This document shows, in pieces, positions 25,872-30,686 of a stretch of 37,141 bases of DNA (position 1 is the stretch's first letter; the number at the start of each line of letters is the position of its first letter). The stretch covers positions 1 to 37,141 of the forward strand of contig CALMEG010000299.1 of assembly GCA_937863185.1 (NCBI GenBank), given 5' to 3'. The stretch is from an uncultured Paracoccaceae bacterium (GTDB lineage Bacteria > Pseudomonadota > Alphaproteobacteria > Rhodobacterales > Rhodobacteraceae). The notes under the pieces were generated by a model, which did no database searches, was not told where the DNA came from, and was given only the letters and a program-made list of their open reading frames with translations. The position numbers were made by a program, and so were the translations under genes.

Positions 25872-27263
25872 TTACTCCGATATCAACACGTTTTCACCAA
25901 GCGCGGGATTGTCCGGCGCCTCGATCCGTTCGATGGGCCAGATGGCCTCGACCACCGCGCCCGAGCGGGCCGGCGCCTCGGAGCCTTTCAGGAACGGATC
26001 GGTGCCGTTGAAGAACCGCAGCCGCGCGCCGGTGCGTTCCAGAAGCGTCTTGGCGATGAACAGCCCAAGGCCCATGCCCTCGTATTCCGGGCGGGGGTTG
26101 CGGTCTGCCTCGGCGCGGCGCGTGCTCAGGAACGGCTCGCCGATCCGGCCCAGAAGTCCGGACGGATAGCCCGCCCCGTCATCCGAGATCCGCAGGGTCA
26201 GTTCCGTATCGCTCCAGATGGCGTCGATCCAGACGGTGGATTGCGCGAAATCCACCGCGTTCTGGACAAGGTTGCGGATTGCATGGATCAGTTCGGGATA
26301 GCGGAAAATCGTCGGCTGGCGCTCGCTGGCTCCGGTCGCGGGCGCCAGGTCGAACAGAATCTCCTTGCCGCGTTCCAGATGCGGCTCGGCCGCTTCGCGC
26401 AGAACGGCCAGAAGGGGGGCGCTGCGCAGATGCAGATCCTCTTTGCCCGCCCGGCCCATCGAGCGCAGGATGTCGCGGCACCGATCCGCCTGATCGCGGA
26501 TCAGGATCGCGTCCTCTTTCAGCAGGGGCTGATCGCCAAGCTCGTCCGCAAGCTCGGCCGAGACAAGCTTGATCGTCGCAAGGGGGGTGCCCAGCTCATG
26601 CGCGGCGGCGGCGACGACCCCGCCAAGGTCCGTCAGCTTCTGTTCGCGCGCAAGGGCCATCTGCGTGGCCAGAAGCGCATCGCCCATCGCGTGGATTTCC
26701 TGCGCGACCCGGTGGGCATAGACGCCCAGGAACACGACCCCGATCACGATCGCAAGCCAGTAGCCGAATTCCACCACCGGCGGCACGGCGATCAGCATGC
26801 CCGAAGTGGTCATCAGCGGGGCATGTACCCAAGCTGCGATCGAGATCATCACGATCGTCGCCAGACCGAGAAGGATGGTCGGGCGTTTTTGCAGCGCCGT
26901 CGCCGCGATCGTGACGGGCACCAGGATCAAGAGCGCGAAGGGGTTGTTCAACCCGCCCGTCAGCGCCAGCAGCAAGGCCAGCTGGGCGGTATCGAACAGC
27001 AGTGTCACCATGGCTTCGGTTTCGGTCAGCCGCTTGTTCTCGGGGAACAGGAAGATCGACACGAGATTGGCCGCGACGGCTGCCCCCACCGTCATCAGGC
27101 ACAGGCCAAGATCAAGCGCGATGTCATAACAGCACCAGGCCACGAAGATCGCGGCAAGCTGCCCGACGATGGCGGTCCAACGCAGATAGATCAATGTGCG
27201 CAGGCGAACCCAGTCCTGGTGCGTTTCGTGCGGCTGTGCGCCGACGGGAAGGAACTGGTTCAT
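25872..27263 (-). CDS. regB: Redox sensor histidine kinase RegB/PrrB
   Basis: A 463-residue kinase matching Rhodobacter RegB in length. Six transmembrane segments fill residues about 25-185, and the quinone-sensing heptapeptide GGLNNPF is at 103-109. The H-box AAAAHELGTPLATI puts the phospho-accepting His at 222. The redox-active Cys sits at 262 in ADRCRDILR. The ATPase has NLVQNAVDFA (N box), DDGAGYP (G1) and GMGLGLFIAK (G2). The ATG at 27263 follows AGGACGC. RegB phosphorylates RegA when respiration falls, controlling photosynthesis, respiration, carbon and nitrogen fixation genes. It is divergent from senC-regA, the classical arrangement. Confidence 0.97.
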   Translation of the reverse strand: MNQFLPVGAQPHETHQDWVRLRTLIYLRWTAIVGQLAAIFVAWCCYDIALDLGLCLMTVGAAVAANLVSIFLFPENKRLTETEAMVTLLFDTAQLALLLALTGGLNNPFALLILVPVTIAATALQKRPTILLGLATIVMISIAAWVHAPLMTTSGMLIAVPPVVEFGYWLAIVIGVVFLGVYAHRVAQEIHAMGDALLATQMALAREQKLTDLGGVVAAAAHELGTPLATIKLVSAELADELGDQPLLKEDAILIRDQADRCRDILRSMGRAGKEDLHLRSAPLLAVLREAAEPHLERGKEILFDLAPATGASERQPTIFRYPELIHAIRNLVQNAVDFAQSTVWIDAIWSDTELTLRISDDGAGYPSGLLGRIGEPFLSTRRAEADRNPRPEYEGMGLGLFIAKTLLERTGARLRFFNGTDPFLKGSEAPARSGAVVEAIWPIERIEAPDNPALGENVLISE

Positions 27264-27294
27264 GATGCGTCCTGATATCACATTTTCGCGCAAA

Positions 27295-27331
27295 TGCATT
27301 GATAGTAGGGCTGTGCTGCGCGATCAATGCA
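27295..27331. promoter_or_regulatory. Perfect 9-bp inverted repeat in the regB-senC divergent region
   Basis: TGCATTGAT at 27295-27303 is matched by its exact complement ATCAATGCA at 27323-27331, with 19 bases between. The pair sits centrally in the 88-bp divergent region. A TTGATA at 27299-27304 on the plus strand and a TTGATC on the minus strand could serve as -35 elements, so a protein bound here could control both promoters. The half-sites contain TTGAT, but the 19-base spacing rules out a normal FNR box (4 bases). Confidence 0.5.
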
Positions 27332-27351
27332 CGACGCCGAACACTCAGGAT

Positions 27352-27993
27352 ATGCCCATGCCCATCACCGCCCGTACCGCCGCCATTGCCGCCACCGTCG
27401 TTGTTGCGGCAGGTCTGGCCGCAACCTGGTTTGCCACCCAAGGGGGCGACAAGGATATCTTCGCCCAATGCCGCAAGGGTGTCGTGGCCGGGGGCAGCGC
27501 CGCGATCGGCGGGCCCTTCACGCTTGTCTCGGAAACCGGGGAAACCGTGACGGACAAGGATGTAATCAAGGGCCCTTCGCTGCTTTACTTCGGCTATACC
27601 TATTGCCCCGATGTCTGCCCGCTTGACAGCATGCGCAACGCAGAAGCCACGATCCTTCTGGAAGAGCGCGGCTACGAGGTCACGCCGATCTTCATCTCGA
27701 TCGATTCCGAGCGTGACACGCCCGAACTTCTGACCGAGTTTACCGATGTGATGCATCCGCGCATGCTGGGCCTTTCCGGCACGGCCGAGCAGGTCAAGGC
27801 CGCAAGCCAAGCCTATCGCACCTATTACAAGGTGCAAAATCCGGGGGACCCCTACACGCTGATCGACCACTCGACCCAGACCTATCTGGTCTTTCCCGAG
27901 ACCGGCTTTGCCGAGTTCTTCAACCGCGACACCACGCCCGAGGAAATGGCCGACCGGGTGGCCTGTTTCGTGGATGCCGCAAAGCCGCGTTAA
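27352..27993 (+). CDS. senC: SCO1/SenC/PrrC copper-binding protein
   Basis: A 213-residue SCO-family protein with an N-terminal anchor (residues about 8-28) and a periplasmic thioredoxin-like domain. The copper ligands are visible: CPDVC (Cys85, Cys89) and His173 in IDHSTQTYLV. It delivers copper to cytochrome oxidase and, in Rhodobacter, influences RegB/PrrB signalling. ATG 27352 and ATG 27358 are both possible; AGGA lies just upstream and is better spaced for the second. It is divergent from regB and 79 bp before regA. Confidence 0.95.
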   Translation: MPMPITARTAAIAATVVVAAGLAATWFATQGGDKDIFAQCRKGVVAGGSAAIGGPFTLVSETGETVTDKDVIKGPSLLYFGYTYCPDVCPLDSMRNAEATILLEERGYEVTPIFISIDSERDTPELLTEFTDVMHPRMLGLSGTAEQVKAASQAYRTYYKVQNPGDPYTLIDHSTQTYLVFPETGFAEFFNRDTTPEEMADRVACFVDAAKPR

Positions 27994-28013
27994 GACCGGC
28001 CGGGACAGAGCGT

Positions 28014-28042
28014 TTGACCCGATAGGCATGTCACACTAGAAC
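28014..28042 (+). promoter_or_regulatory. Candidate sigma-70 promoter for regA
   Basis: TTGACC (28014-28019), a 17-base spacer, and TAGAAC (28037-28042) lie between senC and regA, placing a start site about 25 bases before the regA ATG. This would let regA be transcribed independently of senC. It is a motif match only. Confidence 0.42.
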
Positions 28043-28072
28043 GAATGCAATCAGGAACAGGCGGGAACAGAC

Positions 28073-28627
28073 ATGTCGGATGATGAGAACATCGAACTTG
28101 GGCCAGATCCCTCCCTGTTGCTGGTGGATGACGATGCTCCGTTTCTGATGCGCCTTGCGCGGGCGATGGAAAAGCGCGGCTTCAAGCCTGAAACGGCGGA
28201 GACCGTCGCCGCGGGCAAGGCCATCGCGCATGCCCGTCCGCCCGCCTATGCCGTGGTCGACCTGCGCCTTGAGGATGGCAATGGCCTCGATGTCGTCGAG
28301 GCGCTGCGCGAACGCCGTCCCGATGCCCGTATCGTGGTCCTGACGGGCTATGGCGCGATTGCGACGGCGGTGGCCGCGGTGAAGATCGGCGCCACCGACT
28401 ATCTGTCCAAGCCTGCCGACGCCAATGACATCACTAACGCGCTGCTGGCGCGGGGCGACAACCTTCCCCCGCCGCCCGAAAACCCGATGAGCGCGGATCG
28501 CGTCCGCTGGGAACATATCCAGCGCGTCTATGAGCTGTGCGACCGCAACGTCAGCGAAACCGCCCGCCGGTTGAACATGCATCGCCGCACGCTTCAGCGC
28601 ATCCTGGCCAAGCGCAGCCCGAGGTAA
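28073..28627 (+). CDS. regA: Response regulator RegA/PrrA
   Basis: A 184-residue, two-domain regulator. The receiver domain has the acidic pocket VDDD (residues 18-21), phosphoryl-accepting Asp63 in VVDLRLEDG, the Thr switch VLTGYG, and Lys in LSKPAD. A Pro-rich linker (NLPPPPENP) is typical of RegA. The C-terminal Fis-type helix-turn-helix (ETARRLNMHRRTLQRILAK) binds DNA. Phosphorylated by RegB, it activates or represses photosynthesis, cytochrome, CO2 and N2 fixation genes. Unlike R. capsulatus, no hvrA follows; a strong terminator lies 15 bases after the stop. Confidence 0.97.
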   Translation: MSDDENIELGPDPSLLLVDDDAPFLMRLARAMEKRGFKPETAETVAAGKAIAHARPPAYAVVDLRLEDGNGLDVVEALRERRPDARIVVLTGYGAIATAVAAVKIGATDYLSKPADANDITNALLARGDNLPPPPENPMSADRVRWEHIQRVYELCDRNVSETARRLNMHRRTLQRILAKRSPR

Positions 28628-28642
28628 CGGCGTTCCGGAATC

Positions 28643-28679
28643 AAAAAAGGGCCCCGCGCATCCTGCGGGGCCCTTTTCA
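28643..28679. terminator. Bidirectional intrinsic terminator between regA and DUF1328 gene
   Basis: A 9-bp stem GGGCCCCGC / GCGGGGCCC (7-base loop) is flanked by six A on the left and TTTT on the right, so it reads as a terminator on both strands. It separates the convergent regA and DUF1328 genes. Confidence 0.92.
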
Positions 28680-28698: not shown

Positions 28699-28872
28699 TC
28701 AGACCGGCGGCTTGCCGCGAACGGCGCGGGCGATCATTGCGACGACGAACAGGATCAGGAAGATCACGAACAGGATCTGTGCAATCCCTGCGGAAGCGCC
28801 GGCGATCCCGCCGAAGCCAAGAGCAGCTGCGATCAGTGCGATCACAAGAAACGTAAGGGCCCATCCAAGCAT
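28699..28872 (-). CDS. DUF1328 (UPF0391) small membrane protein
   Basis: A 57-residue protein, nearly all membrane: [25 protein letters not shown]-type N-terminal helix, then a second helix ([16 protein letters not shown]) and a short basic tail. These features match the YtjA/DUF1328 family, whose function is unknown. The ATG at 28872 follows a strong AAGGAG site. Upstream on its strand is a GGAAC-N17-CGTT promoter (28961-28936), which would start transcription about 55 bases before the gene. E. coli relatives are linked to stress and stationary phase. Confidence 0.92.
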
Positions 28873-28935: not shown

Positions 28936-28961
28936 AACGCCGGCATACCGCAGCCGGTTCC
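28936..28961 (-). promoter_or_regulatory. EcfG-type (general stress) promoter for DUF1328 gene
   Basis: On the minus strand, GGAAC (28961-28957), 17 bases, CGTT (28939-28936). This is an exact match to the published alphaproteobacterial EcfG/SigT consensus. It is correctly placed before the DUF1328 start. Confidence 0.75.
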
Positions 28962-28995
28962 GGTCGGGGGCGGAAATTTATTTGCCCGAAATCAC

Positions 28996-29021
28996 GGAAC
29001 CGGGCGGCAGGTCCGTGCGTT
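28996..29021 (+). promoter_or_regulatory. EcfG-type (general stress) promoter for PLDc_N gene
   Basis: GGAAC (28996-29000), 17 bases, CGTT (29018-29021), 35 bp before the PLDc_N start. Exact consensus match, divergent from the DUF1328 promoter 34 bp away. Confidence 0.75.
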
Positions 29022-29056
29022 GACCGGCACTGGCCTGATCGGGAGATGGCACGAAA

Positions 29057-29260
29057 ATGGAGATGAACATGTTCGAGCTTACGGGATTTGGCGGCCTTGT
29101 GCTGCTGGCACTCGATATCTGGGCGCTGGTGTCGATCATCGGCTCTTCGCGGCCCACGGGTTCCAAGGTTCTATGGGCGCTGCTTGTGATTCTGCTGCCG
29201 CTTGTCGGTTTCCTGATCTGGCTGATCGCAGGCCCGCGCTCTGCCGTGCGCGGGGCCTGA
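29057..29260 (+). CDS. PLDc_N-domain small membrane protein
   Basis: 67 residues (63 if started at ATG 29069, which has the better-spaced GGAG site within the first codons). Two hydrophobic helices (about residues 12-28 and 38-59) surround SSRPTGSK; the second contains WALLVILLPLVGFLIWLIAGPR, the pattern of the phospholipase-D N-terminal domain (PLDc_N), here without any catalytic domain. Such stand-alone proteins are common, with unknown function. A terminator follows and an EcfG-type promoter precedes, so it is a single-gene unit. Confidence 0.88.
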   Translation: MEMNMFELTGFGGLVLLALDIWALVSIIGSSRPTGSKVLWALLVILLPLVGFLIWLIAGPRSAVRGA

Positions 29261-29296
29261 TGAACCTGCCTCTAAGGTGAAAACTGCCTCACTTTG

Positions 29297-29327
29297 CCCG
29301 CCCGCGCATTTGCCGGGCGGGTATTTT
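29297..29327 (+). terminator. Intrinsic terminator after PLDc_N gene
   Basis: An 8-bp stem CCCGCCCG / CGGGCGGG with a 9-base loop, followed by TATTTT. It lies 36 bases after the stop. Confidence 0.88.
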
Positions 29328-29344
29328 CGTTCCTGCTGCGACAA

Positions 29345-29369
29345 GGAACCTAATGCCGTCACCGGCGTT
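29345..29369 (+). promoter_or_regulatory. EcfG-type (general stress) promoter for holin-like/DUF3618 operon
   Basis: GGAAC (29345-29349), 16 bases, CGTT (29366-29369). It gives a leader of about 50 bases to the ATG at 29425. Third exact match within about 430 bp. Confidence 0.75.
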
Positions 29370-29424: not shown

Positions 29425-29832
29425 ATGCAGGCATCGGAAGATACCGCAATCAAGGACGAGCCGATCGAGGCGCTGCTGATGCGGGCGCGGATGCAGGGCC
29501 GGGCCGTGCTGGAGGATCAACGCGCGCTGTTACGGGCCGAGGCGCAGATGCGCGCCGGGGCGCTGCAAAAGGGCCTGTTTCTGGGCGCCATCGCGCTTTG
29601 CCTTGGCATCGTCGCGCTGAACGCGCTTGGTGCGGCGCTTGTGGTGCTTGTGATGCGGGCGGGCCTGCCGCTTGGACCCGCGGTGCTGCTGGTCGGGCTG
29701 GCGGGGTTCGTTGCTGCCGTCCTTGCAGCGCAATTCGCCGCGAAATCGGCGATGCAGGCACTGAACACGCCCAGCCCCAGTCTCTCGGCGCTGTCCACTC
29801 ATGCGAAGACCATCAAGGAGACCTTGAGATGA
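29425..29832 (+). CDS. Holin-superfamily-III (YqjE-like) membrane protein
   Basis: 135 residues. An N-terminal amphipathic/charged helix (residues 12-48, IEALLMRARMQGRAVLEDQ) is followed by two transmembrane segments (about 50-77 and 82-105) and a short Ser-rich tail. The pattern fits the Phage_holin_3_6/YqjE family; despite the name, chromosomal members are not lysis proteins. The ATG at 29425 follows GGACGGAGAG. Its stop overlaps the next start (ATGA). The EcfG-type promoter upstream suggests general-stress control. Confidence 0.85.
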   Translation: MQASEDTAIKDEPIEALLMRARMQGRAVLEDQRALLRAEAQMRAGALQKGLFLGAIALCLGIVALNALGAALVVLVMRAGLPLGPAVLLVGLAGFVAAVLAAQFAAKSAMQALNTPSPSLSALSTHAKTIKETLR

Positions 29833-30626
29833 GCAAGAAATCCGACGTGAACGATATCGAGGACCGCCTGTCCGACGATCGCGCGGCCCTGGGCGAGACC
29901 TTGGCCGAGATCCTTGCGCGGGTCGGGCCGGCATTCGCGCTGGAATACGGCGTGGCGCATCTGCGCGACAATGCCGATGTCTATGCGCGGCGCGCGGGGC
30001 AAACGGTGATGAAGAACCCATTGGCATTCGCGCTGATGGGGGCGGGCCTGGCCTGGATGCTTCTGGGCAATCGCGACCCGGCTGCCTCTGACACCGCGCG
30101 CCGGAAACTGCACGAGGCGGCCGAGGATCTTTCGGACGAGGTGGATGCGGTGGCCGACCGCTGGGCGAAACGCCTCGACAAGCTGCGCCGCAGCGCTTCC
30201 GAGCAGATTTCGCGGATCGAGGCCGAAGCCGCCAAGGGGCTGGAGGATGCGCGCGATTTCACGACTGAGAAAGCCTCTGTTCTTGCGGAATTCGCCGAAG
30301 GCGTGAAATCCGAACTGGCCGGGGGGCTGGCCGATCTTTCCGCCGAGGCGCGCCGCAAGACCATCGCCGCGCGCGAAGCGGCCTATGCCGCGCGCCTCAA
30401 TGCCGAGGCCGCCGCGAAAGCCGCGGGCCAGCAGACCGCGCGCTTCGTGCAGGACCATCCGCTTGTCACCGCGGCGCTTGGCATCGGGCTTGGCGTGGCG
30501 ATCGCCGCCGCCGTGCGGAGCCGCCCGGAAAAGCCGGTGCCGGGGGGCGATCTTGGCCAGAAGCTTGCCGATATCCTGTCGGGCGAGGCAGAGGCCGCGC
30601 TGCGCAAGCTGGGCACGCGGCATTAG
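29829..30626 (+). CDS. DUF3618-domain membrane protein (YqjD/ElaB-like layout)
   Basis: 265 residues. The N-terminal DUF3618 part (DIEDRLSDDRAALGETLAEI) leads to a first membrane helix (about 63-80). A long Ala/Glu/Lys/Arg-rich helical stretch (84-205) looks coiled coil. A C-terminal helix with QDHPLVTAALGIGLGVAIAA (209-228) resembles the Gly-rich anchor of DUF883 proteins YqjD/ElaB. In E. coli, YqjD is paired with holin-like YqjE, is RpoS-dependent and tethers ribosomes to the membrane. The same partner and a general-stress promoter here suggest a comparable role, which is inference. Confidence 0.85.
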   Translation: MSKKSDVNDIEDRLSDDRAALGETLAEILARVGPAFALEYGVAHLRDNADVYARRAGQTVMKNPLAFALMGAGLAWMLLGNRDPAASDTARRKLHEAAEDLSDEVDAVADRWAKRLDKLRRSASEQISRIEAEAAKGLEDARDFTTEKASVLAEFAEGVKSELAGGLADLSAEARRKTIAAREAAYAARLNAEAAAKAAGQQTARFVQDHPLVTAALGIGLGVAIAAAVRSRPEKPVPGGDLGQKLADILSGEAEAALRKLGTRH

Positions 30627-30652: not shown

Positions 30653-30686
30653 AAGGGCGTGGCTTTCGGCCACGCCCTTCGTGTTT
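30653..30686 (+). terminator. Intrinsic terminator after DUF3618 gene
   Basis: A 9-bp stem GGGCGTGGC / GCCACGCCC with a 5-base loop, followed by TTCGTGTTTTT. It separates the operon from the convergent gltB. Confidence 0.88.

Follow-up and report, generated by a model that had tools for sequence, protein, structure and literature searches.

The window, a stretch of 37,141 nucleotides that forms contig C299 of a 3.08-Mb, 315-contig draft genome, carries three EcfG-type promoters (P1–P3) within 434 bp. Judged by sequence comparison, these are very probably general stress response promoters, through which the sigma factor EcfG would switch on a DUF1328 gene, a PLDc_N gene and an operon of a holin-like and a DUF3618-like gene. 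P1 lies on the minus strand at 28936–28961, with its −35 element GGAAC at 28961–28957, a spacer of 17 bases and its −10 element CGTT at 28939–28936, and would drive DUF1328. P2 (plus strand, 28996–29021; GGAAC-N17-CGTT) is directed towards PLDc_N, and P3 (plus strand, 29345–29369; GGAAC-N16-CGTT) towards the holin-like/DUF3618-like operon. The GGAAC and CGTT elements and the spacers of 16–17 bases agree with the consensus sequences published for EcfG in R. etli, GGAAC-N16-CGTT (PMC3892343), and in Rubellimicrobium, GGAAC-N16-17-C/GGTT (PMC12148442). An earlier note on this DNA had claimed three such motifs, one per transcription unit and 35–65 bp before genes in the right orientation; all three are exact in position and strand. 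Counted from the final base of CGTT, the start codons of DUF1328 (ATG at 28872), PLDc_N (ATG at 29057) and the holin-like gene (ATG at 29425) follow after 63, 35 and 55 nt, respectively. Each motif is close upstream of its gene and correctly oriented, and the arrangement is kept at orthologues, as described below. Transcription would be expected to start about 8–12 nt past each CGTT.

P1 and P2 are divergent and stand back to back, with their −35 elements 34 bp apart. The interval between these elements (28962–28995) holds an A/T-rich core, GGAAATTTATTTGC. Such a core is frequent between the −35 elements of divergent pairs in GC-rich genomes, and is perhaps an UP-like element. Scanning the window for Rfam families and tRNAs gave no matches.

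The DUF1328 gene (28699–28872, minus strand) encodes a small membrane protein of 57 residues of the YtjA/UPF0391 family, which scores 59.8 bits on PF07043 (E 3e-16; gathering cut-off 27) and is also over the cut-off of NF010228 (E 5e-24); its start at 28872 is supported by the NCBIfam alignment. The PLDc_N gene (29057–29260, plus strand) encodes a stand-alone membrane protein of 67 residues (PF13396, 47.9 bits, E 1e-12; gathering cut-off 23.3), from which the catalytic domains of phospholipase D are absent. The holin-like gene (29425–29832, plus strand) encodes a YqjE-type membrane protein of 135 residues of holin superfamily III, marginally over the gathering cut-off of Phage_holin_3_6 (PF07332, 30.3 vs 28.4 bits). 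Its start codon at 29425 comes after GGACGGAGAGAGAG; a longer reading frame, from 29353, would begin within P3. Overlapping it by the four bases ATGA, the last gene (29829–30626, plus strand) encodes a putatively membrane-anchored, coiled protein of 265 residues with a glycine-zipper-like tail at the C-terminus, called DUF3618-like from its position and weak similarity. The label DUF3618, used in the earlier note, holds for two positional counterparts in relatives, which score 43 and 47 bits on PF12277 (DUF3618), and does not extend to the window protein itself, which gives no PF12277 match at the gathering cut-off. Nor does the protein qualify as a YqjD (DUF883) family member, its tail reaching 19.9 bits on DUF883_C against a cut-off of 27; the case for direct homology to YqjD is likewise not convincing (hhalign probability 27%, weak similarity in the tail), and neither is that for the holin-like family and YqjE when their profiles are compared.

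Strong hairpins separate the units, consistent with one promoter for each, as had been proposed. One with T/A flanks lies between regA and DUF1328 (28645–28677; each strand folds at roughly −28 to −29 kcal/mol) and is likely a two-way terminator. A second, between PLDc_N and P3 (29295–29323, plus strand; −24 kcal/mol for 29290–29340), is likely a terminator with a weak T run, and an intrinsic terminator follows the holin-like/DUF3618-like operon on its 3′ side (30653–30679, plus strand). We note that the island sits directly behind a regB-senC-regA redox two-component system (25872–28627), whose RegB and ActR/PrrA/RegA proteins are over the cut-offs of the corresponding NCBIfam models; the other neighbour of the island is a glutamate-synthase-like gene. 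The presence of regB-senC-regA here would suit a member of the Rhodobacteraceae.

A motif of nine bases with flexible spacing is common in a 3-Mb genome, and the three matches might in principle be accidental. The bare motif is in fact not enriched genome-wide, with 40 matches, many of them within genes, against 74 for the reversed control, so that a single match carries little weight. The cluster is another matter: 40 sites spread over 3.08 Mb would yield about 0.0006 triples as tight as 434 bp, a figure that leaves orientation and position out of account. In the window, GGAAC-N15-18-CGTT occurs five times (two further matches, with N15 spacers, are not counted with P1–P3), against a mean of 0.94 in shuffled sequences, none of 100 of which reached five. 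Dozens of genera also have the motif before these genes, its spacers being unrelated in sequence, while scrambled motifs score 0–2. We therefore give almost no credence to coincidence, in line with the earlier note's view that three such motifs are unlikely by chance. A recognisable gene comes after 12 of the 40 motif sites in the genome, compared with 2 of 30 for the reversed motif (p about 0.015; the first of these counts was in part curated by eye), an excess that lends modest support. This count comes from a search for Pfam-supported genes just downstream of the sites, which replaced a sorting by location outside long open reading frames; the latter gave no separation in this GC-rich genome (8/40 motif vs 5/29 control sites).

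The earlier note had staked its reading on the presence of an EcfG system in the genome, and ecfG, nepR, a partial phyR and a PhyK-like kinase gene are all found, on a separate contig, C113, in the order phyR start, nepR, ecfG and HisKA_2 kinase. NepR scores 58.8 bits on PF18557, over the cut-off. PhyR, whose gene is cut at the contig end, is represented by its first 87 residues (PhyR_sigma2, 85.5 bits). The ECF sigma factor is assigned as EcfG because its gene lies between nepR and the kinase gene and because it is similar to other nepR-adjacent sigma factors, and the best NCBIfam model for the kinase is PhyK, below its cut-off. EcfG motifs stand 37 nt before the start of nepR and 32 nt before that of phyR. 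The genome thus encodes EcfG together with NepR and PhyR (the latter partial) in a core locus in which nepR-ecfG is divergent from phyR, both have EcfG promoters of their own and a HisKA_2/HWE kinase gene is nearby, a layout that matches the one given in a review of the system (PMC8103513). Like the general stress responses of R. etli, Caulobacter, Sphingomonas, Sphingopyxis and Rubellimicrobium, the present system has the same sigma factor group, anti-sigma factor and response regulator, in addition to the HisKA_2/HWE kinase, the promoter consensus and the organisation of the core locus.

A genome-wide scan for the motif, proposed in the earlier note, also places it before several genes outside the island. 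It occurs 31 nt before the gene for RpoH (TIGR02392, over cut-off), at C265:32770–32794 (L042, 1571–1595), which suggests a sigma cascade from EcfG to RpoH. Further sites lie 34 nt before the Fe-superoxide dismutase gene (C96:4229–4254; L008), 26 nt before osmC (C315:8788–8812; L041), and before genes for entericidin (C167:4193–4218; L020), a glycine-zipper lipoprotein (C1:5133–5157; L002) and a PLD-motif protein. The entericidin, Fe-superoxide dismutase, OsmC and glycine-zipper lipoprotein genes are likely further members of the EcfG regulon.

The site at the RpoH gene also bears on a different assignment, in which P1–P3 are real promoters that serve mainly another ECF sigma factor or RpoH, through overlapping −35 and −10 elements, and EcfG plays a minor part. 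According to PMC5830050, PhyR of R. sphaeroides affects the activity of RpoE and the stress sigma factors of that organism overlap. We nevertheless consider this assignment improbable, since P1–P3 match the published EcfG consensus exactly, promoters identical to them stand before nepR and phyR of the same genome, and promoters and target genes track NepR and EcfG across genera.

Support for EcfG as the sigma factor of P1–P3 comes from 198 genomes of the family, one per genus. NepR is found in 88 of them, and the 110 without a NepR match may include some with a divergent NepR, although a search for EcfG-like sigma factors (E ≤ 1e-40) agrees closely, with 89 positive genomes, 87 of which are also NepR-positive. 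The statement in the earlier note that some Rhodobacterales lack the EcfG/PhyR system is right in kind, and the presence of EcfG/NepR in some genera of the family and its absence from others make for a natural comparison. DUF1328 occurs in 79 genomes, comprising 74 of the 88 NepR-positive and 5 of the 110 NepR-negative ones (Fisher p = 2e-33, a value that overstates the evidence because the genomes are related and not independent). PLDc_N is present in 62/88 NepR-positive vs 7/110 NepR-negative genomes, and divergent promoter pairs like P1/P2, not all of them at DUF1328, in 26/88 vs 0/110. In 52 of the 74 genomes with both DUF1328 and NepR, DUF1328 lies within 5 kb of nepR.

The promoters follow the same division. 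Exact GGAAC-N16/17-CGTT, on the coding strand, is found upstream of DUF1328 at 40 of 64 loci of NepR-positive genomes, and the published [CG]GTT form at 50 of 64 (reversed control, 0); the reversed, complemented and four scrambled versions of the motif are found at none of the 64. The spacers between the −35 and −10 elements are unrelated in sequence, which indicates that the promoter elements are conserved and not the DNA as a whole. Upstream of PLDc_N, the EcfG motif occurs in 21 of 29 relatives in NepR-positive genera. Five genomes keep DUF1328 with no NepR or EcfG match (G028, G080, G099, G164 and G180; loci L092–L096); two of these five are only 86% complete, and in none of the five does a CGTT-type motif stand at DUF1328 in the right orientation.

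The holin-like gene is present in 28 of the 88 NepR-positive and none of the 110 NepR-negative genomes, and in relatives a DUF3618-like gene usually comes next. The exact motif within 400 bp directly before the holin-like gene is seen, among the loci compared, in the own genome only. The relatives' operons usually begin with an additional gene, encoding a protein with a hydrophobic tail, which the window operon is without, and the promoter precedes that gene; accordingly, when the region before the first gene of the operon is considered (within 1.1 kb), the motif is found at 21 of 28 loci, against 0–1 for the controls. The Pfam name for the first protein of the window operon, a putative holin, might suggest that this pair is a prophage remnant or lysis system that came by chance to lie behind a stress promoter. 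This origin is very improbable, given that the gene occurs in 28 genera, each of them NepR-positive, and usually has the same partner behind it, that its neighbours in the window are regB-senC-regA and the glutamate-synthase-like gene, and that E. coli YqjE, which is chromosomal and controlled by sigma-S, is in the same Pfam family (75.8 bits on PF07332). Of the name "holin-like" in the earlier note, the PF07332 match stands; on the evidence so far the protein is of the YqjE type and not a phage lysis protein.

To look beyond the family, we sampled 141 further genomes from across the class, the own genome not being counted. DUF1328 is found in 16 of 18 NepR-positive vs 20 of 123 NepR-negative genomes; outside the family, the NepR model has probably lost some of its sensitivity. 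The exact motif precedes DUF1328 at 10 of 27 loci, and six control motifs give 0; at three of these loci the wrong DUF1328 start was picked, an error that could only reduce the count. In 8 of the 16 NepR-positive genomes with DUF1328, it lies within 10 kb of nepR. These sequence comparisons suggest a near-obligate tie of DUF1328 to the EcfG system class-wide.

The partner switch between PhyR, NepR and EcfG is a known mechanism (PMC8103513), and by analogy the island would be controlled as follows. In unstressed cells, NepR would hold EcfG. Under stress, the PhyK-like kinase would phosphorylate PhyR, which would then take NepR off EcfG. Free EcfG would guide RNA polymerase to GGAAC-N16/17-CGTT and turn on the three island units, along with nepR-ecfG, phyR, rpoH, the genes for Fe-superoxide dismutase and OsmC, and others. 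The products of the island would form a membrane-protection arm of small membrane-spanning proteins and a YqjDE-like module, the latter of which may act by tethering or quieting ribosomes, or else by stabilising the envelope.

Comparable proteins are under stress control elsewhere. In Salmonella, DUF1328 (YtjA) is tightly dependent on sigma-S (PMC5437024); ytjA of Salmonella and E. coli is likewise under a general stress sigma factor, but sigma-S and its promoter are unrelated to those here, and the sigma-S wiring appears to have arisen separately from the EcfG wiring. The yqjD and yqjE genes are also under sigma-S, and YqjD recruits ribosomes to the membrane (PMC10746276). The related P. aeruginosa operon PA3040-3042 is part of an envelope stress response (PMC11302039). 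Like the window operon, E. coli yqjCDEK and PA3040-3042 combine C-tail anchored and holin-like proteins under stress or envelope control (PMC10746276, PMC11302039). The hydrophobic-tail gene that opens the operons of the window's relatives is a further point of resemblance, which the window operon does not share. The PhyR cascade of R. sphaeroides (RSP_1272-1274) has the same locus type as that on C113, with a NepR counterpart only 25% identical to NepR, and plays a limited role, chiefly against membrane stress, according to PMC5830050, in the accessible part of which we found no target list with the island genes. A cascade that defends against membrane stress fits the membrane-protein output proposed here, and the combination can be tested directly.

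In the alphaproteobacterial general stress response it is chiefly the regulators that are known, and many of the outputs are of unknown function. The EcfG system and its switch are known; what would be new, if the sequence relationships are read correctly, are the island genes as its targets. In the searchable literature, outside which supplements and subscription papers fall, DUF1328, stand-alone PLDc_N and the holin III/DUF3618 operon are unnamed as EcfG targets, and a link between DUF1328 and EcfG was not found. Co-occurrence with EcfG/NepR, the promoter and proximity to the core locus together mark DUF1328 and its neighbours as prime candidate effectors. A broader proposal, on which we are evenly divided, is that DUF1328 is a core, nearly obligate EcfG output, which the class has retained next to nepR-ecfG-phyR and under the promoter of that system, that it forms a dedicated membrane-protection arm with stand-alone PLDc_N and a YqjE/DUF3618 module, and that in enterics it was wired to sigma-S independently. 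If this is true, unrelated general stress sigma factors have convergently recruited the same small membrane proteins.

Finally, the promoters of nepR-ecfG and phyR interlock, on opposite strands of the same 32–33 bp with an offset of 6–7 bases, for example GGAACCGAACGTCCCGCCACGGCGTTCGGTTCC. This arrangement is found in the own genome (L032, contig C113, 3919–3951) and in 13 of the 22 relatives that have both (L062, L071, L099, L104, L107, L110, L112, L113, L116, L117, L124, L126 and L127). As the two promoters interlock, a polymerase on one should exclude a polymerase on the other, and the arrangement could couple or balance the operon for the inhibitor and the sigma factor against the activator.
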